Shown here: positions 672 through 19,083 of the stretch, one piece after another
How the letters are laid out: every line of letters begins with the position of its first letter
Numbering within the stretch: the first letter of the stretch is position 1
IMG/VR virus record: IMGVR_UViG_3300020195_000447
Location: 1-20,290 of that record
Length of the DNA stretch: 20,290 nucleotides
Reading direction: 5' to 3' (one strand)
Source: a virus
Translations under genes and position numbers: made by a program
The notes under the pieces: generated by a model
The model's input: the letters and a program-made list of their open reading frames with translations, nothing else
What the model was told of the DNA's origin: nothing
Database searches by the model: none

Positions 672-696
672 GGCTGTCAGCCTCACGCGCTAGTGT
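672..696 (+). promoter_or_regulatory. Promoter-like element P1 (leaderless type)
   Basis: The near-palindrome GGCTGTCAGCC (672-682) is followed by TAGTGT (691-696). TGTCAG starts exactly 16 nt before TAG, as in the six other copies in the window. GTG 706 begins 31 nt after TGTCAG starts. No Shine-Dalgarno sequence precedes it. Confidence 0.65.
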
Positions 697-705
697 GGTT
701 TGTGC

Positions 706-984
706 GTGCGCGTGACCAACAAGAAACGAGGCCCGGCCCCTAAGCCGCCTGATGTGCAGGGCAACGCGTGTTGCCAGTCCATCGGCACCGAGCATCGCTT
801 CGATTGTCGGGTTGCGTCACCAAAGAAACGCGGCGCCGGTCCGTTTCTTCCCACCTACGATCCGCCGACAGAGTTTCTTCGATGCTGTGGCGGCATGCAG
901 GTGCATCGCGCGTACTGCGTCTCGTCGATGCCCGTCGAGCTCCGTGCGCCTACCCCCCACATCACGAGGACCAATGGCTGTTGA
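706..984 (+). CDS. Small Cys-rich protein of unknown function
   Basis: About 92 aa from GTG 706, chosen because it sits at the leaderless distance from P1; GTG 712 is also possible. The protein begins RVTNKKRGPAPKPP and contains paired cysteines (ACC, RCCGG) with further single Cys and His residues, suggesting metal binding. I recognise no family. The end overlaps the start of the next gene by 11 bp. Codon third positions are reasonably GC-rich, but competing frames are open across the same stretch, so the gene is supported mainly by its promoter. Confidence 0.45.
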   Translation: MRVTNKKRGPAPKPPDVQGNACCQSIGTEHRFDCRVASPKKRGAGPFLPTYDPPTEFLRCCGGMQVHRAYCVSSMPVELRAPTPHITRTNGC

Positions 985-1207
985 TCCAATCGAGAAGCCG
1001 ATGAAGCCTGCGAACCACCGCGCGCTGATCGAAGCACGGCGCGTGCTCTGGCGTAACGACGTGAACCCGGACAAGAGCGTTGATCTGATCGAGACGCTTG
1101 CGGCGCTCGTGCGCGAGTACGAGATGAACATGCCAGGCGTGAACGCGCGCGTGAGTAAGCTCATCGATGAGACGCCGTGGGCGTTGGCTGTCAGCCCCGC
1201 GTTGTAG
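974..1207 (+). CDS. Small hypothetical protein
   Basis: 77 aa beginning MAVDPIEKPMKPANHRALIE. The frame is open further upstream, but ATG 974 follows a GAGGA Shine-Dalgarno (966-970), so it is preferred. The product is mostly helical and charged (ALIEARRVLWRNDVNPDKS, then LIETLAALVREYE), without cysteine or a membrane segment. I recognise no family. Its last residues (AVSPAL) and TAG stop are encoded by promoter element P2, so the gene end and the next promoter are the same DNA. Confidence 0.65.
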   Translation: MAVDPIEKPMKPANHRALIEARRVLWRNDVNPDKSVDLIETLAALVREYEMNMPGVNARVSKLIDETPWALAVSPAL

Positions 1208-1210
1208 AAG
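1186..1210 (+). promoter_or_regulatory. Promoter-like element P2 (leaderless type)
   Basis: GGCTGTCAGCC (1186-1196) with a -10-like TAGAAG at 1205-1210, the same 16-nt offset as the other copies. The hexamer is a weaker TANNNT match. GTG 1218 follows after 7 nt. The TAG is also the stop codon of the preceding gene. Confidence 0.6.
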
Positions 1211-1217
1211 TACGGGC

Positions 1218-1457
1218 GTGGCGAAACAGATTTGCTTCGGTGGCTTCATCCCCTGCCGGGATGAACGTTGCAAAGATCGAATCGACGTTCACCCCGAGCA
1301 CGTCATCCCATCACAGAAAAACCGAATCGACGCGTGCCCGCGCTGTGATGGGGACGTGTTTCCACTACCCAAGCAGCGTGCTGCATGCACTGCGTGCACC
1401 TGGCGCGGTAGTCGCCTCGTCCCGAAGATCAAGAAAGAAGCTCGCCCGCATGCGTGA
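1218..1457 (+). CDS. Small zinc-ribbon protein with CRDExC/HPxH motif
   Basis: 79 aa from GTG 1218, which lies 29 nt after TGTCAG of P2, as expected for a leaderless start. Two metal-binding patterns are visible: CRDERC followed by HPEH in the N-terminal part, and CPRCDG followed by CTACTW further on, a CxxC/CxxC zinc ribbon. The C-terminus is basic (KIKKEARPHA). A near-identical CRDEHC...HPWH element occurs at the start of the winged-helix protein at 3324. The function is unknown; nucleic-acid binding is plausible. Its TGA overlaps the ATG of the following ATPase gene (ATGCGTGA), implying translational coupling. Confidence 0.65.
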   Translation: MAKQICFGGFIPCRDERCKDRIDVHPEHVIPSQKNRIDACPRCDGDVFPLPKQRAACTACTWRGSRLVPKIKKEARPHA

Positions 1458-2343
1458 CATCCCGCTCAACGACGCGCCCGGCAAGTTGCCGATCTTCACG
1501 ATGCTCAACTACGGCGACACCCGTACAGGCAAGACGGAGTTCGGCGCGACGTGGCCGCGCCCGATGATCCTCGCAGATGTCGCCGAGCGTGGCTACACGA
1601 CGATCAAGACGATGGATCGCGAGAAGTGGTTCGAGCCCAACGTCGAGCCGATGATCAAGGGCATCGAGAACATGAACGATCTGGCGAACATCTTGCCGAT
1701 CATTCAGGCGCTGATCGCGAGTGGTCGGATCATGACGGTCGTGTTCGATGCGTTCACGTTCTACACCGACTTTTTCCTCAACGGGATCATCGCGACGCAG
1801 AGCAAGCCCGACAACCGCGCAGCGTACGGCACGCTCGGGCTACATCTGCGCAAGGTCCGCACGGATCTCCACAGCCTCAAGACGAACGTCGTTTGGAACT
1901 GCCTCGCGCGGCACCCCGACACCGACAACCTGAAAGGCGGCCCGATGATTCCGGGCCAGCAGGCGGACAAGTTCGCGGCCGGTGTCGACTTCCTCGTGCA
2001 TTCACGCATCGAGCAGATCAAGGACGGCGGCAAGATCGTAGGCGAGGAGTTCCAGCTTCGCACGCGCCAGTACAACAGCTACATCTGCGGCAACCGGCTC
2101 GGTACGGACGCGCAGTACCTGCCGGATCCGTTCATCGGGACGTACAGCGATCTCATGGTGCAGCTCGGCTACGACGTGGAGGCGCTGCGCAAGTCGCTGC
2201 CCTCGCCGAAGATGCCGACGATCGCGGCACCCGTGGTGGTGAAGCCACCCGTCAACAATTCAGCACCGAAAGTGGCAGTTGTGCCGCCGAAGGTGGGGAA
2301 CAACCCGGTGGCTCACAAGGCCACCAACAACGTGAAGGACTAG
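1450..2343 (+). CDS. Sak4-like RecA-fold recombinase ATPase (AAA_24)
   Basis: 297 aa from ATG 1450. The frame is open upstream to about 1177, but that part overlaps the zinc-ribbon gene and has a shadow-like composition. Walker A is GDTRTGKT (residues 22-29), and Walker B ends at Asp100 in MTVVFDAFT. The remainder has the layout of the phage AAA_24/Sak4 family, whose members are RecA-like annealing ATPases that act with an SSB-like partner in recombination-dependent replication. The adjacent DUF669-like gene is the usual neighbour of this family. The C-terminal tail, from about residue 245, is rich in Pro, Val and Asn and probably unstructured. The fold call is secure; the role follows from the family. 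Confidence 0.88.
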   Translation: MRDIPLNDAPGKLPIFTMLNYGDTRTGKTEFGATWPRPMILADVAERGYTTIKTMDREKWFEPNVEPMIKGIENMNDLANILPIIQALIASGRIMTVVFDAFTFYTDFFLNGIIATQSKPDNRAAYGTLGLHLRKVRTDLHSLKTNVVWNCLARHPDTDNLKGGPMIPGQQADKFAAGVDFLVHSRIEQIKDGGKIVGEEFQLRTRQYNSYICGNRLGTDAQYLPDPFIGTYSDLMVQLGYDVEALRKSLPSPKMPTIAAPVVVKPPVNNSAPKVAVVPPKVGNNPVAHKATNNVKD

Positions 2344-2350
2344 AAGCGTC

Positions 2351-2875
2351 ATGGCAAACAACGAAGCACCTGCCGAGTTCACTGATTTCGAGATTCACCA
2401 GGATCTCTCCGAGGTCGACGCATGGGGTGGCGAACAGCGCCCGCTCGTGCCAGCTGGCGAGTACCAGCTGACGATCACCCACGTCGAGCAGAAGCCGAGC
2501 TCGAACAACAACCCGATGATCGTCGTGACCTTCGAGGTGGCCAGCGGCCCGGAGAAGGGCTCGAAGGTGTGGGGCAACTACGTACTCACGCAGAAGGCGA
2601 TGGGGCGCATCAAGGCGCTCGTCGTCGCGTGCGGTGGATCGCTCGATGTGATCCGCGCGAGCGAGCTGATGGGTGCCACGATCGAGGCCACCGTCGTGCA
2701 CAACGAAGGTCAGGCGAAGATCGGTCCCGATGGCAACCCGGGCGCCACACCCGTCTACGCCAACGTGATCAACGAGCGCGCGCCCGAGCAGGCGGCGCCC
2801 GCGCCGACGCCGGCCCCGCCGGTCACCCGCGCCACGCAGGCCAAGCCGCAGAACGGCGCCGCGCGGCGGGCGTAA
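2351..2875 (+). CDS. DUF669-like SSB-type protein
   Basis: 174 aa. The core (LVPAGEYQLTITHVEQKPSS, then NNPMIVVTFEVASGPEKGSKVW) matches the phage DUF669 pattern of a beta-barrel, single-strand-binding-like protein that pairs with Sak4 or Erf-type genes. The last 35 or so residues are Pro/Ala-rich (APAPTPAPP) and end in basic GAARRA, a flexible tail rather than the acidic tip of bacterial SSB. It starts 7 bp after the ATPase stop without a clear Shine-Dalgarno sequence, so coupling is likely. It is the last gene before a strong terminator. Family assignment is from pattern memory; ssDNA binding is inferred. Confidence 0.75.
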   Translation: MANNEAPAEFTDFEIHQDLSEVDAWGGEQRPLVPAGEYQLTITHVEQKPSSNNNPMIVVTFEVASGPEKGSKVWGNYVLTQKAMGRIKALVVACGGSLDVIRASELMGATIEATVVHNEGQAKIGPDGNPGATPVYANVINERAPEQAAPAPTPAPPVTRATQAKPQNGAARRA

Positions 2876-2964
2876 ACGACTCGCGGCGCGGCGCGGAGCC
2901 TCCTCGACCCTGATCCGCGGTGCGTTTCCCCCCGGGTGCTGCCCCGTCGAGAATGCAGCACGAC

Positions 2965-2991
2965 GAGCCCTTTCGGGGCTCTTCGTCTTTT
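2965..2991 (+). terminator. Rho-independent terminator
   Basis: A 6-bp perfect stem GAGCCC/GGGCTC (2965-2970 and 2976-2981) with loop TTTCG is followed by the T-rich tract TTCGTCTTTT. Flanking ACGA and TCGT extend the stem after one mismatch. It lies 90 bp after the DUF669-like gene and would end the 706-2875 transcription unit. Confidence 0.8.
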
Positions 2992-3323
2992 CGGCGTAGG
3001 TAGTGCCGGCTGTGCGATCCCGTCACTACAGGCTGCGCGCCTACGCGCAGTGATTGCGAGATCACTTACGTGCGGGATCTCGTCACGACGTGTTGGCTGC
3101 CTGTGGATTGTCGATTTTTCTCGCGTCGATGTTCGCGTGTTGCTTCGAGAAGATCTCACTCCCGCGACTCCACAGGAAAGTCACAGGCATAAAAAGTTGC
3201 GCGATCTCGACATCGTACTCTAAGGGTTAGGCATACACGTCTCACTGAGCGTCGGCGCGCGGCGAGACCACTACCATCACAAATTTGCGGTCCCACGGGA
3301 TCGCGTCCAGGGGGCTGGAATAG
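2992..3323. other. Noncoding region with inverted repeats (possible control region or origin)
   Basis: This is the longest stretch without a credible gene. It holds a 6-bp hairpin AGTGAT/ATCACT (3049-3066) and an overlapping inverted repeat CGAGATC (3057-3063) with GATCTCG (3076-3082), so two structures compete. GATCTCG recurs near 3203-3209. Two T- or A-rich runs (GATTTTTC near 3113, CATAAAAAG near 3188) stand out from the GC-rich surroundings. I see no good promoter of the TGTCAG type. Replication origin, regulatory RNA or operator are all possible; none is shown. Confidence 0.4.
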
Positions 3324-3758
3324 ATGTCTGAAGTTGAGTCAGGGTCGATCTGTCGTGATGAGCACTGCGACCGCATGGGGGTGCATCCGTGGCATCCAAT
3401 GGGCGCGAACCGCGAGGTCAAACCACACCACCGGCCAGGCAAAAAGCCGGTGTGGCAGCTCGATGATCCAACCGCGCTAACCGGTGCCGTCGCTCGCGCG
3501 ACGAGCAAAGCCTACCCGACGCACTTCGCCGCCATCGTGCGCGATGTTCGCGACGACTACGGCACGGTGACGGAGCGAACCGTCTACCGCCACATCAAGA
3601 AGCTAGTCGCCCGCGGGCACATCGCGAAGGTCGACATCGGCTTCGCGTTCGCGGCGTACATCCGGCCGGGCAGCCGCATGTTCAAGACCGCGGACGCGAT
3701 CCGCGACTACATCCTCGGCACCGTCGAGATGACTGCGTGCACGCGCGAGGTTGGCTGA
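3324..3758 (+). CDS. Winged-helix DNA-binding protein with N-terminal Cys/His motif
   Basis: 144 aa. The N-terminus has CRDEHC followed by HPWHP, the same metal-binding-like element as in the protein at 1218. Residues about 62-115 (HFAAIVRDVRDDYG, then TERTVYRHIKKLVARGHI) look like a winged helix-turn-helix with a recognition helix around TERTVYRHIKKL. It is therefore a candidate transcriptional regulator. It is the first gene after the noncoding region and may control the adjacent promoter elements, but this is not demonstrated. Its TGA overlaps the next ATG (TGATG). Confidence 0.7.
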   Translation: MSEVESGSICRDEHCDRMGVHPWHPMGANREVKPHHRPGKKPVWQLDDPTALTGAVARATSKAYPTHFAAIVRDVRDDYGTVTERTVYRHIKKLVARGHIAKVDIGFAFAAYIRPGSRMFKTADAIRDYILGTVEMTACTREVG

Positions 3759-4042
3759 TGCCCTACTCCTGCGCTAGTTGCGGGCGCGAGAGCCTGTTGG
3801 CTCGAACTCTGCGCTGCGCGCAGTGCCAGCCCACCAAGCCAGTCGATCGCGTGGATGCGCTGCACCATCAGCTCACGCAGCACACGAAGGTGCACCCGAA
3901 TTGGTTGCTCGTTACGGGATCGTTCGCCTCCGAGGAATTTGATCGCCTCTACTGCACTTGGATCTGCGCGCGCTGGGATGCGGGCGACCCCTGGGTGCGC
4001 GAGTGCTGGCCTACACGCCCGGTTGCGCTGCGCGCTTGCTGA
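3758..4042 (+). CDS. Zinc-ribbon protein, tandem paralogue copy 1
   Basis: 94 aa beginning MPYSCASCGRE. Two CxxC pairs (CASC and CAQC) form a short zinc ribbon; a conserved block SFASEEFDRLYC.WICARWDAGD follows. It is closely related in DNA and protein to the next gene. ATG 3758 overlaps the upstream stop and keeps the same start context (TTGGCTGATGCCC) as copy 2. It ends earlier than copy 2 because its 3' end diverges before the promoter block. The function is unknown. Confidence 0.7.
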   Translation: MPYSCASCGRESLLARTLRCAQCQPTKPVDRVDALHHQLTQHTKVHPNWLLVTGSFASEEFDRLYCTWICARWDAGDPWVRECWPTRPVALRAC

Positions 4043-4085
4043 CTGTCGAATCGTGGTTGTCAGCCCTACGCAGTAGCGTTGGCTG
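4026..4085 (+). repeat. Promoter-bearing 60-bp repeat, copy A
   Basis: This block is nearly identical to 4996-5055 (GCGCTGCGCG, TTGCTGACTGTCG, ATCGTGGTTGTCAGCCC, GCAGTAGCGT, with a few substitutions). It includes all of P3 and also an inverted repeat GCTGAC/GTCAGC spaced by about 15 nt. The second copy carries P5 upstream of the polymerase. Confidence 0.8.
4056..4079 (+). promoter_or_regulatory. Promoter-like element P3 (leaderless type)
   Basis: TGTCAGCCC begins at 4058 and TAGCGT lies at 4074-4079. The 16-nt offset is conserved. ATG 4086 follows 6 nt after the hexamer with no Shine-Dalgarno sequence, giving a leaderless mRNA if transcription starts about 7 nt after the -10 box. Confidence 0.75.
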
Positions 4086-4385
4086 ATGCCCTACTCCTGC
4101 TACATCTGCGGCTTTACTACATGGTCGTTCCCCACGTCTGGTCCGGTGTACTGCGGGCAGTGCCAGGCGCCTGATGCTGCGAATGCACGCGTGGATGCGC
4201 TGTACCATCAGCTCAAGCAGCACATGAAGGTGCACGCGGGTTTTCTAATCGTCGCGGGATCGTTCGCCTCCGAGGAATTTGATCGCCTCTACTGCGCTTG
4301 GATCTGCGCGCGCTGGGATGCGGGCGACGACCCCTGGGTGCGCAAGGTCTGGCCTGCGCGACCGGCTGTCAGCCCCACGCAGTAG
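4086..4385 (+). CDS. Zinc-ribbon protein, tandem paralogue copy 2
   Basis: 99 aa beginning MPYSCYICGFTT, with CxxC pairs CYIC and CGQC and the same C-terminal block as copy 1 (SFASEEFDRLYC.WICARWDAGD). ATG 4086 is 6 nt after the TAGCGT of P3, so the mRNA is probably leaderless. The last residues (AVSPTQ) and TAG stop are encoded by promoter P4. The function is unknown; a small nucleic-acid- or protein-binding role is likely. Confidence 0.72.
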   Translation: MPYSCYICGFTTWSFPTSGPVYCGQCQAPDAANARVDALYHQLKQHMKVHAGFLIVAGSFASEEFDRLYCAWICARWDAGDDPWVRKVWPARPAVSPTQ

Positions 4386-4388
4386 TGT
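4365..4388 (+). promoter_or_regulatory. Promoter-like element P4 (leaderless type)
   Basis: GGCTGTCAGCC begins at 4364-4365 and TAGTGT is at 4383-4388, the standard offset. ATG 4396 follows after 7 nt. The TAG also ends the upstream zinc-ribbon gene. Confidence 0.75.
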
Positions 4389-4395
4389 GCTGGCG

Positions 4396-4818
4396 ATGAG
4401 AGACCCACGGATCGCAGAAGCAAAAGCCCGCCTCACCGCGTGGACGATCCCTGAGCTGAGACATGTCTGCGTTGAAGGCATGCTGGCTGGCGGGTGGATC
4501 CGCTTCCGGTACGATTGCGACGGGAACATGGAGATCTGCGCGATGTCCGACAACGTGCAGTACATCGAGAAGAAGACCGGGAAGCCTTGCCCGCCGTGGT
4601 GGGAGACCAATGCCGCGTGGGATCTCGCGTACGAGCTGGTCCCGAAATCTGATCAGCACATCTCCAAGACGCAACCGATCGGCACCGAGGTAGCACTCGG
4701 AGACGTGGCAGGAGTCAGCGGCATGGGCACGGTCATCGAATACGCCGGCAGTTGGTTCACTGTCCGGTACGCGGACGGTCAGGAGCGTTCGATCTCGATG
4801 CCAAGGTGCAAGGTATGA
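4396..4818 (+). CDS. Hypothetical protein with C-terminal SH3-like segment
   Basis: 140 aa from ATG 4396, placed by P4; the frame is open upstream but that part overlaps the previous gene. The N-terminal half is helical, followed by a stretch with WIRFRYDCDG and CPPWW. Residues about 96-140 (IGTEVALGDVAG, then GTVIEYAGSWFTVRYADGQE) look like a small beta-barrel of SH3/Tudor type that might bind nucleic acid or protein. I recognise no family. The end overlaps the next start as ATGA. Confidence 0.65.
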   Translation: MRDPRIAEAKARLTAWTIPELRHVCVEGMLAGGWIRFRYDCDGNMEICAMSDNVQYIEKKTGKPCPPWWETNAAWDLAYELVPKSDQHISKTQPIGTEVALGDVAGVSGMGTVIEYAGSWFTVRYADGQERSISMPRCKV

Positions 4819-5045
4819 ATCGCTGGCCTTGCGGGCACGCGCTGCATAGCGCCACGGAAGCCGCGGAATGCGCGGCGTACGCGCGGCGCGATGCACGACA
4901 CATGCGTTGGTTCACGATGTTTTTCTTTCTCGTGATCGCAGCGATCTTGGTTGGTGTCGAGCTAGGCCGCGCGGCGTGGATCTACGGCGATTGGCGCTGC
5001 GCGTTTGCTGACTGTCGCATCGTGGTTGTCAGCCCCGCGCAGTAG
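4815..5045 (+). CDS. Small single-span membrane protein
   Basis: 76 aa from ATG 4815 (ATGA overlap with the previous gene). The N-terminus (MNRWPCGHALHSATEAAECAAYARR) has Cys and His residues; one hydrophobic span covers residues about 32-52 (WFTMFFFLVIAAILVGVEL). The C-terminus (CAFADCRIVVVSPAQ) is translated from the duplicated promoter block and ends at the TAG of P5, so this tail probably arose when the block was inserted. The function is unknown. Confidence 0.6.
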   Translation: MNRWPCGHALHSATEAAECAAYARRDARHMRWFTMFFFLVIAAILVGVELGRAAWIYGDWRCAFADCRIVVVSPAQ

Positions 5046-5055
5046 CGTGGTTGGC
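4996..5055 (+). repeat. Promoter-bearing 60-bp repeat, copy B
   Basis: This is the second copy of the block at 4026-4085, with a few single-base differences. Here it is read through in frame as the tail of the small membrane protein and delivers P5 to the polymerase gene. Confidence 0.8.
5026..5048 (+). promoter_or_regulatory. Promoter-like element P5, upstream of the polymerase
   Basis: TGTCAGCCC begins at 5027 and TAGCGT lies at 5043-5048. GTG 5058 starts 9 nt later, the longest gap of the set. The same TAG stops both the upstream gene and the polymerase frame, so GTG 5058 is the first possible start. Confidence 0.7.
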
Positions 5056-5057
5056 TA

Positions 5058-8000
5058 GTGGAGGACGAGATCCCGATCAGCTTCGCCCCACTGTATCGTG
5101 GGACCGCAGAGGGCGCTGACTGCCCGAGCTGCCCGTTCGCGACGAACGGTGAGCCGACGCGGCCGGTGTTCTCAGAGTTCCCCGAGGATCCTGCGTGGAT
5201 GGTGATCGGTGAAGGGCCAGGGTTCAACGAGGTCCGGCAGAGCCGCCCGTTCATCGGCGCGGGCGGGCAGGTGGTCGACAAGGTGCTCGTCAAGATCGGG
5301 CGCGCGCGGCGTGACCTCTACGTCGGCAACGTGATGCTGTGCATGCCTCCGCAGGGCACACCCGAAGCGGCGCGGCAGCGCGCGGCGATCGCATGCCACC
5401 CGCGGCTCGTGCGCGAGCTCGCCGAGTTCCCAGGCAAGCCGATCCTGACCCTCGGCGCAGTGGCTGCGCGTGCGATCATCCCCAAGCCGGCGCTCGATGC
5501 GATCGATCCACCCGACGCACCCAAGTCGATCCGCAAATCGCAGAAGCTGCGCCAGCAACCGCAACTGAAGAACGCGATCGCGCGGCGCAAGCAGATCGAC
5601 AAGATCGGACAACGCCGGCTCAAGAAAATGATCACGCACCTGCGTGGTCAGATCAAAGCCGAGCTGAAAAAGAAGCAACGCGCGCGGCCCGATGAGCCGT
5701 ACCTGCAAGCCGAGGTTGCCCGCGTCCAGCCACGGATGGAGCTGAAGGCGCGCGAGGACGCGATCAAGGAGTTCGAGCTCGCGGTGAAGACCCGCGATGC
5801 GAAGAAGAAGGTCGACGTGCTCAAGCCCAAGGCGAGGAAGCCCAAGCCGATCAAGATCTCGGACATCGTAAGCACGCTGTTCGAGATCAATGTCGACGGT
5901 ACCGGCCCTCGACCGTTGATCCCGGGCATCCATCCGGCATCGCTGCTCCGCGGGGGTGGCGCGTCGATCGGCGGCTCGCACACGCCCGACCTCGCGTACG
6001 TCAACCTGATCTACGACGCTGGCAAGGTCGATGCGCTCTCGAAGGGGAAGGACATCCGGCTCAAGCTCAACGTCGAGTACGAGCTGACCGACGTGGATCG
6101 CACGGTCGAGCTGTTCCTCAAGGTCTACCGCGATGCGCTTGAAGAGGACGCATGCTCGCTCGATCTTGAGACCTACGTTGACGACCCGGATCGCCACACC
6201 GCGCTGATGGCGTACGTGGCGAAGATCCGCGTGGTCGGGCTCGCGACGCAGAAGCACGCGATCTCGCTAGCGTGGGATCTCTTGCCGTCGTGGTGTCACT
6301 CGCTGTTGCAGCTGTTGATCGGCCGCGTCGAGATGACGTACCACAACGGGCTCTACGATCGCACGGTGCTGCTCGCGCAGGGCTTCATCATGGGGCCGCG
6401 ATGGTTCGACACCTTGCTCGCGCACCACGCAGCGTTCCCGGGCAACTCGCACCGGTTGCAGACGGTGACCGCGCAGTTCTACGGCGTGACGCCGTGGAAG
6501 AGCGAGTTTCGTAACGCCGAGGAGAACGGCGAAGACCTCGCGATCTACAACGCGAAGGACACCGGCGGCACGCACGCGCTCCGGGCGCCGCTGACCTTGT
6601 GGATGAAGCGCACGAACACGTTGCGCGTCTACGAGCTCGATAAGAAGATGTCCGCGATCGCAAGCGACATGCACATCGCGGGCATGCCGGTGTCGCGCGA
6701 GGTCAACTCCGAGCTGCTAGCTACGTTCACGAAGAACGTCGTGGAGTCACGACGCGCCGTCGAGGACATCGCGCGCGATCCTAAGCTGCGCGAGCAGATC
6801 TGGCACCACCTGGCACTGCAACAGGCCCGCAAGCAGCGCAAGGTCGACCCCGATGACTTAGAGGCCCGCTACGACGTCCGCCTAGCAGCGATGAAGCTGG
6901 ATCCCGATTGGAAGTGGAAGATCGGCGCCAGTAAGCACGTCGCGGCGCTGCTCCAAGCGATGGGCGTCGGGCTCTACCAGACCACCGAAGGCGGCGACGT
7001 CTCAACGAAAAAGGACGTGCTAGAGGCGCTGACCGAGGTTCCGATCGTTCGCGAGATCCTCACGTTCCGCGAGAACGACAAGCTGCACTCGACGTTCGTG
7101 TGGGGCCTCTTCGATCGCACGAACCACACCGGCGAGATCGTGCAATACGGCTACGCCGACGGGAACGATCGCATTCATCCGATCTGGAACGTCCATCGGA
7201 TCTCGGGCCGCTGGGCCTCACAGTGGCCGGTGGTCTCCAACGTTCCGAAGGACAAGTGGAAAAAGGTTCTCGACTTCGCGCTCTCGGTGCTTCGTGGCAG
7301 GCTGGACACGAGCGGCATCATCCCGCCGGCGAAGGGCAGCTTCGAGCTCGACGGGTCGCACTACCGGTTCAGCGATAAGGACAGCTCGTTCTCAAAGATG
7401 GTGCGGCCGAACCTGCGTCGGCAGATCCGCGCACCCAAGGGGCGAGTCCTCGTCGGGTTCGACTTCGCGCAGATCGAGGCTCGCGTGATCGCGCTCATCT
7501 CGGGCGATCCGTTCCTGTGCGCGATCTTCGCCGAGGGTCGCGACCCGCACATCGAGTGCGCTCGGATCATCTTCGCAGGCTTCGACACGTTCGACAAGGC
7601 CACGCAGAAGCAGCTACGTGAGCAGACCAAGCCGATCGAGTACGGGGCGATGTATCTCGCGCAGGTCGAGACGCTGCACAAGCAAATGCTCAAGGAGGGG
7701 CATTTGATCAAGCTCGTCGACCTTGCAAAAGCGATCGCGAAGCTGCTCCACGCGATGGCGGGCCTCGTACGTTGGCAGCATCAGACCGTTGCGAACGCGT
7801 CGTGCCCTCCGTACGAGGTGAAAGACTTCGTGATCGGCCGCCGCCGTACGTGGCCGATGGGCAACGTTGAGGGCACCGAGGCCGTCAACTTCGGCGTTCA
7901 GACCGCGGCGGCGTCGATCATGAACACCGGTATGGCGCAGATGGCCGATCGGATGCACGAGTTCACCCAGGCGCACATGATCGCGCAGATCCATGACGCA

Positions 8001-8144
8001 TGCGTGTTCGAGTGCTGGGAGGACGAGGCTGAGCGGCTCGCTGAGGTGATCAAGGTGGCGTACACGCAAGAGTACGAACGCGACGGCCGAACGATCCCGT
8101 TCCCTGTTGACGTGCGGATCGGCCAAGACTGGAGCGAGGTGTGA
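5058..8144 (+). CDS. UDG - 3'-5' exonuclease - family A DNA polymerase fusion
   Basis: 1028 aa. The N-terminus is a family-4-type uracil-DNA glycosylase: Cys22-x2-Cys25 and Cys95-x17-Cys113 match its Fe-S ligand pattern, GEGPG is at residues 51-55, and HPASLL begins at His292. A Lys/Arg-rich helical insertion (about 160-275) separates these halves. The exonuclease has SLDLET (Asp369, Glu371), YHNGLYD and YNAKD. The polymerase has GRWASQWP, motif A DFAQIEAR (Asp802), motif B KPIEYG (Lys858, Tyr862) and motif C IHDACVFE (Asp980), where the usual HDE reads HDA. It is the likely replicative polymerase. Fusion of this glycosylase type to PolA is known from SPO1-like phages; whether this one excises uracil or only recognises it is open. 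The gene is preceded by P5. Confidence 0.93.
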   Translation: MEDEIPISFAPLYRGTAEGADCPSCPFATNGEPTRPVFSEFPEDPAWMVIGEGPGFNEVRQSRPFIGAGGQVVDKVLVKIGRARRDLYVGNVMLCMPPQGTPEAARQRAAIACHPRLVRELAEFPGKPILTLGAVAARAIIPKPALDAIDPPDAPKSIRKSQKLRQQPQLKNAIARRKQIDKIGQRRLKKMITHLRGQIKAELKKKQRARPDEPYLQAEVARVQPRMELKAREDAIKEFELAVKTRDAKKKVDVLKPKARKPKPIKISDIVSTLFEINVDGTGPRPLIPGIHPASLLRGGGASIGGSHTPDLAYVNLIYDAGKVDALSKGKDIRLKLNVEYELTDVDRTVELFLKVYRDALEEDACSLDLETYVDDPDRHTALMAYVAKIRVVGLATQKHAISLAWDLLPSWCHSLLQLLIGRVEMTYHNGLYDRTVLLAQGFIMGPRWFDTLLAHHAAFPGNSHRLQTVTAQFYGVTPWKSEFRNAEENGEDLAIYNAKDTGGTHALRAPLTLWMKRTNTLRVYELDKKMSAIASDMHIAGMPVSREVNSELLATFTKNVVESRRAVEDIARDPKLREQIWHHLALQQARKQRKVDPDDLEARYDVRLAAMKLDPDWKWKIGASKHVAALLQAMGVGLYQTTEGGDVSTKKDVLEALTEVPIVREILTFRENDKLHSTFVWGLFDRTNHTGEIVQYGYADGNDRIHPIWNVHRISGRWASQWPVVSNVPKDKWKKVLDFALSVLRGRLDTSGIIPPAKGSFELDGSHYRFSDKDSSFSKMVRPNLRRQIRAPKGRVLVGFDFAQIEARVIALISGDPFLCAIFAEGRDPHIECARIIFAGFDTFDKATQKQLREQTKPIEYGAMYLAQVETLHKQMLKEGHLIKLVDLAKAIAKLLHAMAGLVRWQHQTVANASCPPYEVKDFVIGRRRTWPMGNVEGTEAVNFGVQTAAASIMNTGMAQMADRMHEFTQAHMIAQIHDACVFECWEDEAERLAEVIKVAYTQEYERDGRTIPFPVDVRIGQDWSEV

Positions 8145-8146
8145 CG

Positions 8147-8169
8147 CTGTCAGCCCCTCGTCGTACAAC
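8147..8169 (+). promoter_or_regulatory. Promoter-like element P6 (leaderless type)
   Basis: TGTCAGCCCC begins at 8148 and TACAAC lies at 8164-8169, the standard 16-nt offset but the weakest -10 match of the set. ATG 8178 follows after 8 nt. It begins just after the polymerase stop. Confidence 0.6.
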
Positions 8170-8177
8170 CATCAACC

Positions 8178-8579
8178 ATGGAATTCATCGATGGCCGGCT
8201 CACACCGGGCACATGCCCGGACTGCCCGCCCACATACATGGGGGTTGTTCATCATGTGGCATGCACGCGGGCAGGTGGTGAGCTGATGCTCGCGCTTCAG
8301 GGTGAGCGTGATGCGTTCCTGGCGCAGCTACCAAACCGCCAACACCAAACCTCTGGTGTTGTCACTGATCCGGTGAACCCACCGCACTATCAGGGCGATC
8401 TCGTGATGCGCATCATCGAGCACTTCGGGCTCGAAACATCGTTCTATCTCGCGAACCTCATCAAGTACGTGCTGCGCCACGGCAAGAAAGCAGGGCTCGA
8501 AGATCTGCGAAAGGCCCGCTGGTATCTCGATCGCGCGATCGCACGCGCCGAAGGCAAACACGTGGAAGGTGTGAAATGA
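8178..8579 (+). CDS. DUF3310 family protein with N-terminal zinc motif
   Basis: 133 aa. The C-terminal half (DPVNPPHYQG, then LVMRIIEHFGLETSFYLANL and IKYVLRHGKKAGLEDLRKAR) is a typical DUF3310 domain, a small helical family common in phages beside nucleotide-metabolism genes and sometimes called nucleotide-kinase-like. The first 35 residues add CPDC and a later HHVAC, a possible zinc site. The start follows P6. Its TGA overlaps the next ATG (ATGA). The biochemical role of the family is not settled. Confidence 0.85.
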   Translation: MEFIDGRLTPGTCPDCPPTYMGVVHHVACTRAGGELMLALQGERDAFLAQLPNRQHQTSGVVTDPVNPPHYQGDLVMRIIEHFGLETSFYLANLIKYVLRHGKKAGLEDLRKARWYLDRAIARAEGKHVEGVK

Positions 8580-8752
8580 CCTGGCCTCAAATCGTCATCA
8601 CACTCTGGTTTCTCTTGAACGTCGGGTTCGTGGCCATCACTGTCACGCGCGACACGAAGATCAGCGTAACAACCGCTACAACCACTGTGCTGCTGTTCAT
8701 GGTGGTCTACGGTGCACTTTCGTGGGTTCTGCGTGCAGGAGGTTTCTGGTGA
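8576..8752 (+). CDS. 58-aa two-span membrane protein
   Basis: Too short for most gene callers but well supported: it starts in an ATGA overlap with the DUF3310 gene and ends in a GTGA overlap with thyX. It begins MTWPQIVITLWFLLNVGFVA and has two hydrophobic spans (about 4-24 and 36-54) separated by a short TRDTKIS turn, ending GGFW. It resembles a common small phage membrane protein with a terminal GGF/GGFW found near DUF3310-type genes; its function is unknown. A holin role is possible from topology alone, but no lysin is nearby. Confidence 0.75.
   Translation: MTWPQIVITLWFLLNVGFVAITVTRDTKISVTTATTTVLLFMVVYGALSWVLRAGGFW
8737..8742 (+). promoter_or_regulatory. Strong Shine-Dalgarno for thyX
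   Basis: AGGAGG lies 6 nt before GTG 8749 and fixes this start over the ATG at 8722, which lies upstream within the membrane-protein gene. It shows that the replication half does use Shine-Dalgarno initiation for internal operon genes. Confidence 0.75.
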
Positions 8753-9720
8753 GCGAGGCACAGCGCACGGACATCGAGCTGCTGACCGACGCTGACGGGC
8801 ACATCTTCGCCCAACAGCCGATCGAAGGTGGCGCATCGATCATCGTGCGCATCATCGCCGATTCGATCACCGACGGCGGCTCGCGGCTCATCACGTGGTG
8901 CTGGGAGTACCAGCGGATGATCCACGCGGAGATCATGACGCACCGGGCGCTCAGCCGTAACGCGTCCAGCTCGCGCGCCATCCCGGCGAGCAAGCTGCGC
9001 GAGCGCGTGCTCAACGCGCCGGCGATCCCCGTGCACTGGGGGCAGAACCAGGCCGGCATGCAGGCATCAGCTGAGGTGACGGACATCGACGCCGCGCGCG
9101 CGTGGTGGCTCGAAGGCCGCGACCTGATGGCAGCGCACCACGCGAAGGGCGAGGCACTGGGGCTGCACAAGCAGATCGTCAACCGGCAGATCGAGCCGTG
9201 GATGATGATCTCGACGATCATCTCGGCGACCGACCACTCGAACCTGTTCCATCTTCGCAAGCATGCGATGGCTGAGCCGAACTTTCAGGTGGTTGCGAGC
9301 CTCGCGTGGGAGTTGTTCCACAACCACATGCCGGTGTTCATCCAGATCAACGGCTGGCACCTACCCTACGTCAACGCGAGCGACATGGAGGTCTCGAAGA
9401 GGACTGAGGATCTGCTCAAGTTGTCGACGGCACGGTGCGCGCGCGTCTCGTACCTCACGCACGATGGCAAGCGTGATCGAGCGAAGGACTTCGAGCTCCA
9501 CGACACGCTCGCGGCAACGGCAACCAAGGGTGAAGATCCGATGCACGCGTCCCCACTAGAGCACCCGGCGTTGGCGGTCGGTGGGCGCGCTCGGATCGGC
9601 AACTTCGAGGGTTGGAAGCAGTACCGAAAGTTCTTCCCACACGAGAACGGCCCCGACGTCAGCGTGCGTTGCTACCGCTGCGGCTGCTGGGGTGGGCGTC
9701 ACGTTCGGGACTGCCCGTAG
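8749..9720 (+). CDS. thyX: FAD-dependent thymidylate synthase ThyX with C-terminal Cys tail
   Basis: 323 aa from GTG 8749. The ThyX signature appears as THRALSRNASSSR (residues 64-76), the phage-type version in which the first Arg of RHRx7S is Thr; WGQNQAGMQ and the His-rich ATDHSNLFHLRKH segment follow. The enzyme methylates dUMP to dTMP using methylenetetrahydrofolate, FAD and NADPH, supplying dTTP for phage replication beside a UDG-bearing polymerase. The last 20 or so residues (VRCYRCGCWGGRHVRDCP) form a zinc-knuckle-like tail (CxxC, then H and C) that I do not recall from standard ThyX. The family call is firm; the tail function is unknown. Confidence 0.92.
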   Translation: MSEAQRTDIELLTDADGHIFAQQPIEGGASIIVRIIADSITDGGSRLITWCWEYQRMIHAEIMTHRALSRNASSSRAIPASKLRERVLNAPAIPVHWGQNQAGMQASAEVTDIDAARAWWLEGRDLMAAHHAKGEALGLHKQIVNRQIEPWMMISTIISATDHSNLFHLRKHAMAEPNFQVVASLAWELFHNHMPVFIQINGWHLPYVNASDMEVSKRTEDLLKLSTARCARVSYLTHDGKRDRAKDFELHDTLAATATKGEDPMHASPLEHPALAVGGRARIGNFEGWKQYRKFFPHENGPDVSVRCYRCGCWGGRHVRDCP

Positions 9721-9743
9721 CTGTCAGCCCCGCGCTGTAGGGT
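9720..9743 (+). promoter_or_regulatory. Promoter-like element P7, upstream of the helicase
   Basis: TGTCAGCCCC begins at 9722 and TAGGGT lies at 9738-9743. GTG 9751 follows after 7 nt with no Shine-Dalgarno sequence. It begins directly at the thyX stop codon. Confidence 0.72.
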
Positions 9744-9750
9744 AGGCGTC

Positions 9751-12570
9751 GTGGAAGAGCAACCCGTCCTCGTAGACACCGCAGAGCAGACCGCGATCAC
9801 CAGCTTCGTCGCCAGTGGCAAAGGCAACCTGATCGTGGATGCGCTTGCCGGGACCGGTAAGTGCCTCGGATCCGGTACACCCGTGTTGCTGTTCGATGGG
9901 CGTGTGATCCCCGTTGAAGATGTGCGAACCGGGATGCTCTTGATGGGTCCAGATAGCGAGCCACGGCGCGTTCTCACAACAAACATCGGTCGAGGCCCGC
10001 TGTATCGCATCAGCCCTGTAAAGGGTGAGTCGTGGGTCTGCAACGACATCCATGTGATGACGTTGACGGGGACCGGTTTCTGGCACGATCAGATCCGTGA
10101 TGTGCCGCTGAACGAGCATCTTGCAGCATGCGGTGAACAACGCCCAGATCGAAACTGGAAGTTGCTACGCACGGGTGTGAAGTGGCCCGCCCAACCCATC
10201 CCGCTGGATCCATACCTCGCAGGACTGTGGCTAGGGGACGGTACCTTTGACTCACCGACGATCACGAATGCTGATCCAGAGGTGGCTGCCTATTGCCGTA
10301 AGATTGCGCCGCAGTTGGGTGTTGAGTGTGTGGTCACTGAAACGCCACGCAACAATTCAAACCTGATCCGTTTTCGTTTTGGTGCGAGGGGTACGTTCAA
10401 CACGCGCACCGAACGCAACGCGTTTCAGGATGCTGTTCAAGCCTTCAAGGTTGACAATGAAAAAGTGATCCCGTGGTGCTACTTGAGCAACTCACGGGAG
10501 AATCGACTTGCGTTACTCGCTGGGCTGATCGACACCGATGGGTTTGTCACATCAGGCTGCGTCGAGATCACGTCGAAATACGATCGGCTCGCAGACGCCA
10601 TTTTGTTCCTTGCACGTTCGCTGGGTTTCGCTGCCTACATGAGCAAGAAGCGCGCAACGATCAAATCGCTGAACTTCGAGGGCGTCTACAACCGCATCAT
10701 GATCTCAGGCGATATCGACGAGATTCCATGCTTGGTTAAAAGGCGTCAAAGTGCGCCGCGCACGCAGATCAAGCGTGTGACTGTTACGGGGTGGGACGCA
10801 GAACCAATCGGCGAGGGCGATTACTATGGCTTCACGCTTGACGGCGATGGCCGATTCTTGCTCGGTGACTTCACGGTCACGCACAACACAACGACGATCA
10901 TCAAGTCGCTCGCGCAGATCCCTCAGCGCAGCATCTTGATGTGTGCGTTCAACAAGCGGATCGCGATCGAGCTCGAAGCCAAGCTCCCGAAGATGCCCAA
11001 GGGTACCGCGGTGCACGTCAAGACGTTTCACGCGATCGGGCTATCGATCGTCAAGCACCACTTTCGGCACCTTCAGGTTTCTGCGCAAGGCACCGAAGAG
11101 CTGATCAACCGCGCCGCGGGCAAAGAGATCTCGTTCAAGATGCGGCGTTGCGCAGTGAACTTGCTGCGCATGATCAAGGAGACCCGTGCCGAGCGCATCC
11201 CACCAACAGCCGATGAAGCGCACGCGATCGGGCTCGAATACGCGTTGTTCAAGACGCTCAATGAAGTTGAGATCAGCCTGTGCATCGAGGCTGTACGTGA
11301 CGCGTACATCCTCAGCGCGAACTTGAACGAGCGCGCGACGATCGATTTCTGCGACATGGTGTGGGCCGCCGCCACGCTCGACCTCGCACCGCCGTCACGG
11401 TATCAGGCGATCTTCGTAGACGAGTTGCAGGACATCTCCGAACCGCAGCTCAAGCTGCTGCTCAAGCTGATGGTCCCAGGCACCGGACGGTTCATCGGTG
11501 TCGGTGACAAGAACCAGCAAATCTATGGCTGGCGTGGCTCGATGGGCGCCAAGGTGTGGAAGGTTGCGCACGATCAGCTGGGCTCGACGTTCCTACCGCT
11601 CACGATGACGTGGCGCTGCTCGGCGGCCATCGTGAAGGAAGCGAACGGGATCGTCCCACAACTGCGCGCCCGCCCGAACGCACCCGCCGGGCACGTTGTT
11701 GATACGAAGTGGTTGGCGTTGCCTGCGGCGATTCGGGCTGGCGTGCCGATCGCGCACGGCAAGCACACGTTCGTACTTTCACGGACCAACGCGAGCCTGC
11801 TCGACGTCGCACTGTACCTGTGGCGTGAACGCGTCCAGTTCGAGCTCAGCGGGGGTGAGGATGTGCTTGAGCCGTTGTTCAGCATCCTCGACAAGCTCGA
11901 TCTGCAAAGCGAGGAGACGTATCGAAAGACGCTCGCGAAGTGGGTGGATGAGGAGCTAGCGCGGGCCGAGAAGCTCAACGCCACGGCCTACGCGGATCGC
12001 GTCGAGGAGCAGTTCAACATGCTTCAGATCGCGATCACGTACACCAAGCCGAAGATGGTGCGGAAGCTGCTCACCGACCTCATGGTGCCGAACAGCGCCG
12101 GTGTGCTGCTCTCGACGGTACACAAGGTCAAGGGCCTCGAAGCGGAGCGGGTGTTCCTGCTCAAGCAAACGTTCGCGCGGTACGCGAAACGCCCATGCTT
12201 CACGTGCCGCGGTAAAGTGAGCCCAGGTTGCGGAGTCTGCCACGGCACCGGTTTCTTCAAGGAAGAGAAGATTCCGCAGGAGGAGCTCAACATCGAGTAC
12301 GTCGCGATCACGCGCGCGAAGAGCCGGCTCGTGTGGGTCGATATCGAAGATCGATTCACAATCACGGAAGCCACTGAGGATCCGCTCTTGGCGGTCGTGC
12401 GCCATCAGCTCGGTGTCGTCTCCGAGCGTGATCAGCTGATCGCAGCGGTGGGTCGGTTCGAGAACGGCGGCATGCCGCATGCGATGGCAGAAGGCTTTGC
12501 CGATCCGCCGCGGGGTGACCATGCACGCGACACAATGATGACGGACTTCTACGAGTCTGAGGAGCCGTGA
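9751..12570 (+). CDS. UvrD/Rep-type superfamily 1 helicase, intein-containing
   Basis: 939 aa precursor; about 597 aa after splicing. The P-loop reads LAGTGK, then the intein (residues 38-379), then TTTIIKSL. Further helicase motifs: VKTFHAIG; motif II IFVDELQDIS (Asp557, Glu558); motif III VGDKNQQIYGWRG; motif IV region FVLSRTN; motif V STVHKVKGLEAERV; motif VI EYVAITRAK (Tyr850). The DEL.D Walker B and QIYGWRG point to a UvrD/Rep-like 3'-5' DNA helicase. Between motifs V and VI sits a cysteine module, Cys816-x2-Cys819-x7-Cys827-x2-Cys830, resembling one DnaJ-type zinc unit. Splicing is required to rebuild the ATP site. The start follows P7. The end overlaps the next gene as GTGA. Confidence 0.92.
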   Translation: MEEQPVLVDTAEQTAITSFVASGKGNLIVDALAGTGKCLGSGTPVLLFDGRVIPVEDVRTGMLLMGPDSEPRRVLTTNIGRGPLYRISPVKGESWVCNDIHVMTLTGTGFWHDQIRDVPLNEHLAACGEQRPDRNWKLLRTGVKWPAQPIPLDPYLAGLWLGDGTFDSPTITNADPEVAAYCRKIAPQLGVECVVTETPRNNSNLIRFRFGARGTFNTRTERNAFQDAVQAFKVDNEKVIPWCYLSNSRENRLALLAGLIDTDGFVTSGCVEITSKYDRLADAILFLARSLGFAAYMSKKRATIKSLNFEGVYNRIMISGDIDEIPCLVKRRQSAPRTQIKRVTVTGWDAEPIGEGDYYGFTLDGDGRFLLGDFTVTHNTTTIIKSLAQIPQRSILMCAFNKRIAIELEAKLPKMPKGTAVHVKTFHAIGLSIVKHHFRHLQVSAQGTEELINRAAGKEISFKMRRCAVNLLRMIKETRAERIPPTADEAHAIGLEYALFKTLNEVEISLCIEAVRDAYILSANLNERATIDFCDMVWAAATLDLAPPSRYQAIFVDELQDISEPQLKLLLKLMVPGTGRFIGVGDKNQQIYGWRGSMGAKVWKVAHDQLGSTFLPLTMTWRCSAAIVKEANGIVPQLRARPNAPAGHVVDTKWLALPAAIRAGVPIAHGKHTFVLSRTNASLLDVALYLWRERVQFELSGGEDVLEPLFSILDKLDLQSEETYRKTLAKWVDEELARAEKLNATAYADRVEEQFNMLQIAITYTKPKMVRKLLTDLMVPNSAGVLLSTVHKVKGLEAERVFLLKQTFARYAKRPCFTCRGKVSPGCGVCHGTGFFKEEKIPQEELNIEYVAITRAKSRLVWVDIEDRFTITEATEDPLLAVVRHQLGVVSERDQLIAAVGRFENGGMPHAMAEGFADPPRGDHARDTMMTDFYESEEP
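9862..10887 (+). mobile_element. LAGLIDADG homing-endonuclease intein in helicase P-loop
   Basis: 342-aa intein between Lys37 and Thr380 of the precursor. It begins with Cys38 (CLGSGTPVLLFDG, block A), has a block-B-like CNDIHVMTL with His101, and two dodecapeptides: LAGLWLGDG (156-164) and LAGLIDTDG (256-264), each with the acidic residue needed for cleavage. It ends with YYGFTLDGDG and DFTVTHN (blocks F and G), with Thr as the +1 residue. All splicing residues and both endonuclease acids are present, so it looks active in splicing and homing. Codon use appears less GC-rich than the flanking helicase, consistent with transfer. Confidence 0.93.
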
Positions 12571-13823: not shown

Positions 13824-13870
13824 CCGGTTGACGTTTCTACGGTCGCTGTGTGATCGTCTGGTCAAGGAGA
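13822..13870 (+). promoter_or_regulatory. Possible late promoter and strong Shine-Dalgarno
   Basis: The gap holds a palindrome AACCGGTT (13822-13829), a TTGACG (13828-13833) 17 nt upstream of a weak TGATCG, and TACGGT (13838-13843) as an alternative -10. AAGGAGA (13864-13870) lies 6 nt before ATG 13877 and is an excellent ribosome-binding site. The TGTCAG element is absent. The promoter assignment is tentative; the ribosome site is clear. Confidence 0.4.
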
Positions 13871-13876
13871 ATTCAC

Positions 13877-13981
13877 ATGGCAAAGCGCAAGAGCACCAAG
13901 AGCTGCAAGTTCGGCAAGGTTTCCCGTGGCAAGCGTAAGGGGCAGTGCCTCAAGTCACGCAAGACGCGCCGCAAGCGCTAG
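13877..13981 (+). CDS. 34-aa highly basic protein
   Basis: This very short gene reads MAKRKSTKSC, then basic residues to RKTRRKR: 17 of 34 residues are Lys or Arg, with two cysteines (10 and 24). The AAGGAGA site 6 nt upstream makes translation convincing. Its composition is protamine-like, suggesting DNA condensation or an internal virion peptide. Its Cys-x-x-Gly-Lys...Cys pattern and start resemble the C-terminal part of the 360-aa protein at 15449. The function is inferred only. Confidence 0.75.
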   Translation: MAKRKSTKSCKFGKVSRGKRKGQCLKSRKTRRKR

Positions 13982-14052
13982 TCGCTAGCCGGCTGCGTTG
14001 AGCTCGCCCGGAGGCGGCGCAGCGATCTGCGTTCAACCAAAGGAGCGAGCCC

Positions 14053-14750: not shown

Positions 14751-14992
14751 TGGCTCGCAAGCGCTACAAGCCCTCGGTGGGTGCGATCTGCAAGATCGGC
14801 ACGCTCGCACACAACAGGCAGTTCACCGCGGCCGAGCTGCGCGAGTACAGCGGGCGCAGCTATGGCGGCCCCCAGCTGATCTCGTGGCTGCGTAAGCACG
14901 GCCACATCGAGACTGTCGGGCGTGGCAAGCTCTACCCGACGGCCAAGGGATGGAAGATGATCGAGTCGGCGTGCACGAAGCGGAAGCGCTGA
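14750..14992 (+). CDS. Small basic protein with winged-helix-like fold
   Basis: 80 aa, beginning MARKRYKPSVGAICKIG. TGATG overlap with the previous gene and GGAGG about 7 nt upstream support the start. The middle (FTAAELREYSGRSYGGPQL, then ISWLRKHGHIETVGRGKLYP) looks like a small winged helix with a beta wing; the ends are basic (ACTKRKR). It may bind DNA inside the virion or act as a late regulator. No family is recognised. Confidence 0.68.
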   Translation: MARKRYKPSVGAICKIGTLAHNRQFTAAELREYSGRSYGGPQLISWLRKHGHIETVGRGKLYPTAKGWKMIESACTKRKR

Positions 14993-15237: not shown

Positions 15238-15239
15238 CC

Positions 15240-15446: not shown

Positions 15447-15448
15447 TC

Positions 15449-17524: not shown

Positions 17525-19083
17525 TGCCTCTGTTCCCGCCCCCATTCGTGATCGGTCTCATCGCCATCTCGGCCGTCGGATCGTCTGTGTCATCAGGCAC
17601 GGTCGTTTTCTCGAACTCGAACAACGTCACGTTCGGGATGTCGGGCGCGACGATCACAGCCTCAGTCGCAGGCGGTGGTGGTGGTGGGATCGCGGCGGCG
17701 GCAGGCACGCAGACCGCAATCACGGGCACGATCGTGCTCGCCAACTCCAACGGCATCAGCTTTGGAATGAGCGGCAGCTCGCAGATCACCGCCAGCTTCT
17801 CGACGCTCATCTACTCGAACAGCCACAACGTCTCGTTTGGGATCGTTGGCTCGACGCTCACAGCATCGGTGGTGGTCCCCGCGCAGTCGACCGGCCCCGC
17901 TGCTTTGAGCGCCGGCACGACGCAGGCGACGAGCGGTACGATCTCGTTCGCTGACTCGAACGGCGTCTCGTTCGGGCTCGACGGGCAGACGATCACTGCA
18001 TCGATCTTGCCGCCGACCCCAGAGACCCCGTTCGCCGTGTCAGCTAACGGCGGCTCACAGAGCACCGGCACCATCACGTTCGCGAACGGCGGCAACGTGT
18101 CGTTCGGCTACGCGGCGGGTGTGATCACCGCGACGGCGACGTTTCCTGCGCAGACCGCATTCGTTCTATCGAACAGCAACAACGTCAGCTTTGGCACGAA
18201 CGGCTCGACGGTCACCGCGAACGCGACGTTCCCTGCGGAGACACCGTTTGGTGTCAGCGCTGGAACGCAGAGCGCATCCACCGGCACGCTCGTGTTCTCG
18301 AACTCCAACGGCGTCACGTTCGGGATGTCGGGGAGCTCGCGGATCACGGCCAGCGTTGACGCGATCAAGTCGATCTCGGGCGGCACCACGCGCGCAAGTG
18401 GTGGCGAGGTCGTGTTCTCGAACTCGAACGGCGTGTCGTTTGGCCTCGACGGGAACACGATGACGGCCAGCGTTGACGCTGGCGTGACGCTGAATTACTG
18501 GAATCCGCAAGACGCATACGCGCAGGTAACCGGCAACCAAGGCCAGGCGACGTTGCACGTGCAGCCCGGTCAGGCCCCCAACGTCACCTTCGATCGGGTG
18601 ATCGTCCCGGTCTACTTCTCGGGCGCGTCGAACTCCACGATGACGCTCTCGTATACGCAGCTGTGGGGCGTGTTCACGCGCACAGGCTCGACATTGTCAC
18701 AGCTGATGTCGACGTCGATCACCGGAACGTTGGGTCACTCAGGTAACGTGAACTCGGCGCTGAACAACGGCGTTCGGTTGTTGACCATCCCTTTTGCGAG
18801 CTCGCTGTCAGCCGATCAATACTACTTCGTGAACATGCAGCGCTCATCGAGCAGCAGCGCCAACGCGACCTTCGCGCAGATACTTGCGAGCCAGCTGAAC
18901 TCGAACTTTTCGGGAATCCTCGGGGTGGCTAGCAACGCCACCATTCAGTACACGCGCGGGCTCGGCGTTTACACCGCGTCCTCGACGGGGATTCCGGTCT
19001 CAATCGCATTCTCGCAGATCAACGGATCCAACTCGTTGGTGCTGCGCCAACCCATCTTCTACGTCGCCAACGGAACCTTCTAG
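17524..19083 (+). CDS. Repeat-containing fibre / receptor-binding protein candidate
   Basis: 519 aa. Residues about 25-320 contain eight imperfect repeats of about 25-45 aa with the core FSNSNGVSFG.(S/D)G.TITAS, separated by GTQ.A.(S/T)GT-type linkers. The remaining 200 residues form a distinct Ser/Asn/Thr-rich domain (LNYWNPQDAYAQVTG, then QLWGVFTRTGSTLSQLMS) ending IFYVANGTF. Repeats of this type occur in long structural or fibre proteins, with a C-terminal recognition domain. The N-terminus is mildly hydrophobic (PPFVIGLIAISAVG) and may dock to the virion. No signal peptide is clear. Function is inferred from architecture. Confidence 0.75.
   Translation: MPLFPPPFVIGLIAISAVGSSVSSGTVVFSNSNNVTFGMSGATITASVAGGGGGGIAAAAGTQTAITGTIVLANSNGISFGMSGSSQITASFSTLIYSNSHNVSFGIVGSTLTASVVVPAQSTGPAALSAGTTQATSGTISFADSNGVSFGLDGQTITASILPPTPETPFAVSANGGSQSTGTITFANGGNVSFGYAAGVITATATFPAQTAFVLSNSNNVSFGTNGSTVTANATFPAETPFGVSAGTQSASTGTLVFSNSNGVTFGMSGSSRITASVDAIKSISGGTTRASGGEVVFSNSNGVSFGLDGNTMTASVDAGVTLNYWNPQDAYAQVTGNQGQATLHVQPGQAPNVTFDRVIVPVYFSGASNSTMTLSYTQLWGVFTRTGSTLSQLMSTSITGTLGHSGNVNSALNNGVRLLTIPFASSLSADQYYFVNMQRSSSSSANATFAQILASQLNSNFSGILGVASNATIQYTRGLGVYTASSTGIPVSIAFSQINGSNSLVLRQPIFYVANGTF

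Follow-up and report, generated by a model that had tools for sequence, protein, structure and literature searches.

Putative RecA-NDp/PafBC-type leaderless promoters in a genome fragment of a soil phage

The mycobacterial RecA-NDp promoter has the consensus tTGTCRgtg-8nt-TAnnnT, in which the -10 hexamer begins 16 nucleotides (nt) from the first T of TGTCR (PMC5656591). PafBC is a WYL-domain heterodimer that is armed by single-stranded DNA (ssDNA) and sits between promoter DNA and domain 4 of sigma-A; PafB contacts the -26 motif, and the complex stands in for -35 recognition (PMC11804915). Homologs of PafBC are also encoded by Myxococcota (PMC9705874). The DNA analysed here, referred to as the window, is a 20,290-base fragment of a soil phage (IMG/VR virus record IMGVR_UViG_3300020195_000447), in which seven copies of the element TGTCAGCC stand directly ahead of genes. 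The geometry of the RecA-NDp/PafBC promoter, a promoter type that was not named in an earlier note on this DNA, is matched exactly by the element. The seven copies are likely to be RecA-NDp/PafBC-type promoters of the phage that give leaderless transcripts and are probably activated by the ssDNA-sensing PafBC of the host, a reading to which we assign a probability of about 0.57.

The window contains eight copies of TGTCAGCC, all on the + strand, where 0.94 would be expected, and none of 100 shuffled sequences reached eight. All seven copies reported in the earlier note were found at the positions it gave; the eighth is inside an open reading frame (ORF) and lacks a -10 hexamer (Table 1). The -26 motif TGTCRG is present in 7/7 promoter copies, and in the same seven TA begins exactly at +16 from the first T of TGTCAG. 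With a TA frequency of 0.015 in the window, the chance that at least seven of the eight copies would have TA at this offset is ~1.5e-12. The hexamers are without exception of the TAG or TAC type, as had been described, and five of the seven conform to a full TANNNT -10, the exceptions being TAGAAG and TACAAC. The gene starts that had been placed 28–31 nt after the first T occur there in every copy. The proposal that these starts are leaderless is well supported by this spacing and by the absence of a Shine-Dalgarno sequence at all seven element-led genes, since such a sequence is seen at several element-less genes (thyX and those at 12567, 13877, 14053 and 14750). The predicted leaders measure 0–3 nt if transcription is taken to start ~12 nt past the first hexamer base.

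The gap between TGTCAG and the -10 hexamer is 10 nt, compared with the 16–18 nt that separate the -35 and -10 hexamers in a standard sigma-70/sigma-A promoter. No strongly conserved column, as expected of a -35, was found upstream of the element, and a scan of the window for standard sigma-70/sigma-A promoters found no consensus -35/-10 pair. Constitutive promoters, read by the primary sigma factor of the host alone or by another sigma factor and using the -26 element as an accessory contact, could be proposed, as actinobacteria often have TANNNT -10 boxes and leaderless genes and the data presented here are sequence data only. Ordinary sigma-A promoters, however, need neither a fixed 10-nt gap, nor an invariant six-base element, nor the absence of a -35, and a like element marks DNA-damage genes in bacteria (see below); such constitutive promoters are therefore an unlikely explanation.

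Conservation of the element was evaluated in nine related contigs of 19–138 kb, found via PolA, and in a tenth, G417 (70 kb), found via a pattern scan, which has orthologous genes and the CCCC flavour in common with the window. These ten related phage records all bear the element, as TGTCAG or TGTCGG, at leaderless starts, several of them at orthologous genes, the positions at which the earlier note had called for it to be sought. It precedes the ortholog of the zinc-finger gene at 1218 in L006, L007, L009, L010 and G417, the ortholog of the first gene of the window (16-627) in L009, L010, L052, G413 and G417, and UvrD-matching ORFs in L010 (+29) and L009; orthology of the first gene in L052, G413 and G417, and of the zinc finger in G417, was read from shared protein motifs. 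The polA genes of the relatives have no element in front, which suggests that individual promoters are gained and lost. In G413 the motif is mostly TGTCGG, consistent with the R of the RecA-NDp consensus. Copies at leaderless starts, including degenerate forms, number ~25 in G001 and ~22 in G005. One of those in G001 lies before a tyrosine integrase gene, the G005 homolog of which matches PHROG integrases (2.7e-29); a tyrosine integrase is encoded by at least two phages of the family.

The fixed spacing is equally evident in the pooled sequence of the window and nine relatives (431 kb, of which ~1.3 kb is counted twice at the L006/L256 overlap). Of the 148 TGTCAG occurrences, 48 have TA at +16, whereas other offsets have ~3. 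When all 4096 hexamers were ranked by the presence of TA at +16 and ATG or GTG at +28-32, TGTCAG came top (37/148), the runner-up scoring 13/253. A matrix built from the relatives only recovered exactly the seven window sites, at 20.7–24.3 bits, the next best place in the window reaching 7.6 bits. Simple duplication has contributed to the set, in that copies 3 and 5 are preceded by 45-nt stretches that agree at 36 positions, indicative of a recently duplicated promoter cassette. As an explanation of the whole, chance or duplication without function has a negligible probability and is refuted by conservation at orthologous positions; the hexamer test, and the retention of the element across phages whose proteins are only ~40–60% identical, point the same way.

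The earlier note had considered an activator site, a repressor site and a non-standard sigma factor, and had seen a near-palindrome, GGCTGTCAGCC, in most copies. What finds support is a promoter of non-standard kind in which an activator-type element precedes the -10. The palindromic operator was rejected, as the near-palindrome is present in only three of the seven copies (675, 1189 and 4367) and is not conserved in the relatives, where the element is not palindromic. The string TGTCA is common to the element and the stoperator core of mycobacteriophage L5, a likeness put forward in the earlier note that no result here supports and that would favour operators or stoperators of an L5-type phage repressor. 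L5-type stoperators are spread across the genome (PMC9283540), whereas the seven window sites lie on the coding strand at nearly one distance from the -10 and the start codon, and have promoter-like scores with the matrix from the relatives. The asymmetry of the element and its fixed placement make a stoperator function very improbable.

Patterns derived from the element were used to scan bacterial genomes, the phylum and class samples being genomes from groups centred on contigs whose titles carry a name. The pattern TGTCAGNCC-N5-GGTAG-NN-T (TGTCAGNCCN5GGTAGNNT) matched 22 times in 396 Actinomycetota genomes, and its reversed control not once. Approximately 16 of the 22 precede recA, radA, xthA, ligA, dnaX, the rpsF-ssb operon, clpC or pup (names assigned by inspection of the ORFs that follow and not by database search), with phage-like start spacing at radA (+28/+29), xthA (+29) and dnaX (+28). 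One class within Actinomycetota yielded 46–47 matches against 3 in the control, many of them before genes for small YneA-type, LysM-containing proteins or for SbcD-like exonucleases. In seven large Streptomyces-like genomes, picked for matching the first pattern and hence with one match each by construction, there were 41 matches against 2; these precede pup, uvrC (+29), dnaG (+28), a RecD2-like helicase gene (+28), dinG (+31), xthA and recA. No enrichment was observed in Pseudomonadota (5 matches, 3 in the control) or Chloroflexota (4 matches, 2 in the control), one of each count being there by construction. The enrichment at repair genes in Actinomycetota, and its absence from the other two phyla, places the phage element in the promoter class of the actinobacterial DNA-damage regulon.

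The form TGTCRGNCC-N6-GTANNNT stands before pup, uvrC, dnaG, recD2-like, dinG, xthA, recA and ligA genes in Streptomyces-like genomes (L287, L289, L290, L292, L294, L296, L299, L300, L304, L305, L193-L199 and L207-L209). For such genomes, lack of conservation of the M. smegmatis motif was reported in a previous study, which left open the existence of such a response (PMC9380542). The phage-derived element exposes these sites (pup, uvrC, dnaG, recA, ligA, xthA) as a candidate PafBC-type regulon of Streptomyces-like genomes, with a consensus that would be unlike the mycobacterial one.

The promoter class is well supported by the geometry, the conservation in relatives, the leaderless placement, the lack of a -35 and the like promoters that precede DNA-repair genes and pup in Actinomycetota, all of them read from sequence. 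We infer that the reader protein is host PafBC, and the data suggest that the phage exploits the DNA-damage alarm of its host to express its own genes. Several observations weigh against this interpretation. The element has phage-specific flavours that extend into the spacer (CCCCATCGA in G001, CAGCGAG in G005 and CCCCRCGCAG in the window), and the core variants TGGCAG, TGACAG, CGTCAG and TGTCAT are frequent in the relatives, which could indicate a phage-encoded or co-evolving reader. Positions 7-8 are TG in mycobacteria as against CC, AC or AG in the phages (CC in the window); it should be noted that this TG is in lower case in the published consensus and that the matched repair promoters of non-mycobacterial Actinomycetota are also without it. 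The exact window flavour, sought as a 17-base pattern in all genomes, gave 16 matches, which is about chance, and the genomes with these matches gave mostly single matches under a looser pattern. A WhiB gene was not found in the relatives, nor was gene 16-627 in the 396 actinobacterial genomes, in a search that had no positive control. The host can consequently only be presumed to be an actinobacterium.

A PafBC-type architecture could also be read by a phage-encoded activator that replaces PafBC, either the protein encoded at 3324 or one encoded beyond the fragment. In favour of this, the element is homogeneous within each phage, with up to ~25 copies per genome, and drifts between phages, and the 3324 protein is conserved beside polA in five relatives, its own gene being without the element in all. 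The homogeneity may, however, stem from cassette copying within a genome, as in copies 3 and 5, and bacterial repair regulons show a like element and spacing independently of the phage. The predicted structure of the 3324 protein, a model of moderate confidence, is a generic winged helix nearest to Fur/PadR folds; PafBC did not appear in the top 50 of its structural matches, and a PDB profile search with this protein returned nothing significant. WYL regulators are likewise missing from the relatives, where only G005 encodes a small WYL-domain protein, which stands alone (L011:1501-1731), comprises ~76 amino acids and has no helix-turn-helix. Taken together, a phage-encoded reader is rather unlikely, although it is the main rival. 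A further match, in G003, was weak with internal stops, and a phage-encoded WYL activator was rejected as a candidate.

Each promoter consists of a -26 element (TGTCAG, then mostly C) and a -10 (TAGNNT/TACNNY) 16 nt from the first T, with no -35, and transcription would start at the start codon or up to ~3 nt ahead of it. If host PafBC is the reader, RNA polymerase carrying the housekeeping sigma-A would be redirected by the PafBC-type WYL activator of the host (sigma adaptation), itself armed by ssDNA. Damage to DNA, or intermediates of phage replication, would then turn on the non-structural genes of the phage, among them those for the nuclease, polymerase and helicase, and an ordinary TTGAC-type promoter would serve the structural module. 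No element occurs from ~12.6 kb on, a region that holds presumed structural genes, small membrane-type ones included, and the TTGACG-N17 arrangement before the MAKRK gene (Table 1) is kept at the ortholog of this gene in three relatives (L007, L008 and L010).

Phage expression is classically coupled to DNA damage by repressor cleavage. More tentatively, it is possible that ~7-25 dispersed, leaderless promoters of the LexA-independent DNA-damage regulon of the host have been adopted by this family of soil phages for its nuclease, polymerase, helicase and zinc-finger genes and, in one genome, for an integrase gene, with expression or prophage induction triggered by ssDNA via PafBC sigma adaptation and not by RecA/LexA repressor cleavage. 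A PafBC-activated phage regulon would, if true, represent a second, LexA-independent route coupling phage expression to DNA damage. Mycobacteria provide the known examples of this promoter type; no systematic, mostly leaderless use of it by a phage family was encountered in the literature searched, and a search on PafBC with phage and promoter revealed no title or abstract describing such phage promoters.

A viral scan with TGTCAGACCC-N4-GGTAG-NN-T identified at least 120 stretches, against ~28 expected (on a rough estimate of 60 Gb for the collection), and PafBC-type promoters are thus perhaps common in phages beyond the family of the window. Most of the viral matches listed are in low-GC contigs with Shine-Dalgarno-like leaders at their genes. 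At ~80 viral loci (L056-L135) TGTCAGACCCCTATGGTAGGAT typically lies before a Shine-Dalgarno-led small gene family (MSANVYTIE...LLVG). The one cultured Streptomyces phage examined, phiC31, has no TGTC[AG]G-N10-TA site. Compared with cultured phages and plasmids, PolA and the first gene gave distant matches only or none; for two proteins of one relative, both conserved, matches were absent or uncultured only.

Table 1. Promoter copies and other features of the window; start offsets are counted from the first T of TGTCAG.
Feature	Position (strand)	-10 hexamer or promoter	Start offset	Downstream gene or remark
Copy 1, TGTCAGCC	675..682 (+)	TAGTGT 691-696	+31	Leaderless GTG 706, unnamed ORF of 92 amino acids (aa) to 984
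Copy 2	1189..1196 (+)	TAGAAG 1205-1210	+29	GTG 1218, CRxExC-x5-HxxH zinc-finger-like protein, 79 aa
Copy 3	4058..4065 (+)	TAGCGT 4074-4079	+28	ATG 4086, 99 aa, paralog of the ORF directly upstream
Copy 4	4367..4374 (+)	TAGTGT 4383-4388	+29	ATG 4396, 140 aa
Copy 5	5027..5034 (+)	TAGCGT 5043-5048	+31	GTG 5058, uracil-DNA glycosylase–DNA polymerase A fusion, 1028 aa
Copy 6	8148..8155 (+)	TACAAC 8164-8169	+30	ATG 8178, DUF3310 protein
Copy 7	9722..9729 (+)	TAGGGT 9738-9743	+29	GTG 9751, UvrD-like helicase carrying an intein
Eighth TGTCAGCC	18806..18813 (+)	None at +16		Inside ORF 17524-19083; chance copy, outside the system
Second promoter class, for comparison	13828..13856 (+)	TTGACG-N17-TGATCG		With Shine-Dalgarno, before MAKRK gene at 13877
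Zinc-finger and winged-helix protein	3324..3758 (+)			Conserved in five relatives at 37-49% identity; a candidate regulator encoded by the phage

Several other features of these phages were apparent. The intein of the UvrD-like helicase (9751-12570) contains a homing endonuclease domain of the LAGLIDADG type, and the matches in relatives begin after the intein region. In the polymerase gene (5058-8144) a uracil-DNA-glycosylase-like domain is fused to DNA polymerase A, and close relatives align over nearly the full length. The motif CRxExC-x5-HxxH, a probable zinc finger, is common to different small proteins of these phages (1218-1457 and 3324-3758 in the window). Before the winged-helix gene lies a 448-nt intergenic stretch (2876-3323) with a terminator-like hairpin (2965-2981 plus a T-run), which could hold the promoter of that gene or an origin. 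The presumed structural genes (window 13850-19083; L246:17002-17796 (-)) have no match to PHROG families or cultured phages; one presumed structural protein of 264 amino acids displays 79-81% identity between relatives.

The element can be set beside three described systems. L5 stoperators are repressor sites that are independent of the -10 and the start codon, unlike the window element. In T4 middle promoters a MotA box and a -10 are used through sigma appropriation, MotA being phage-encoded. By analogy, the common logic would be a factor-bound element near the -10 that replaces the -35, although sequence and spacing differ. The closest likeness is to RecA-NDp (recA P1) of Mycobacterium, used by PafBC and sigma-A RNA polymerase, in which, as in the phage, TGTCRG is followed by TANNNT 16 nt from the first T, no -35 is needed and the promoter is tied to DNA replication and repair genes. 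In contrast to the mycobacterial promoter, the window element resides in a phage genome and is almost always leaderless. The candidate sites of non-mycobacterial Actinomycetota, TGTC[AG]G[AT]CCC-N6-GTAG, resemble the phage element in this respect, being often leaderless at +28 to +31, and differ from it at position 7, which is mostly A or T in these bacteria and C in the window phage.

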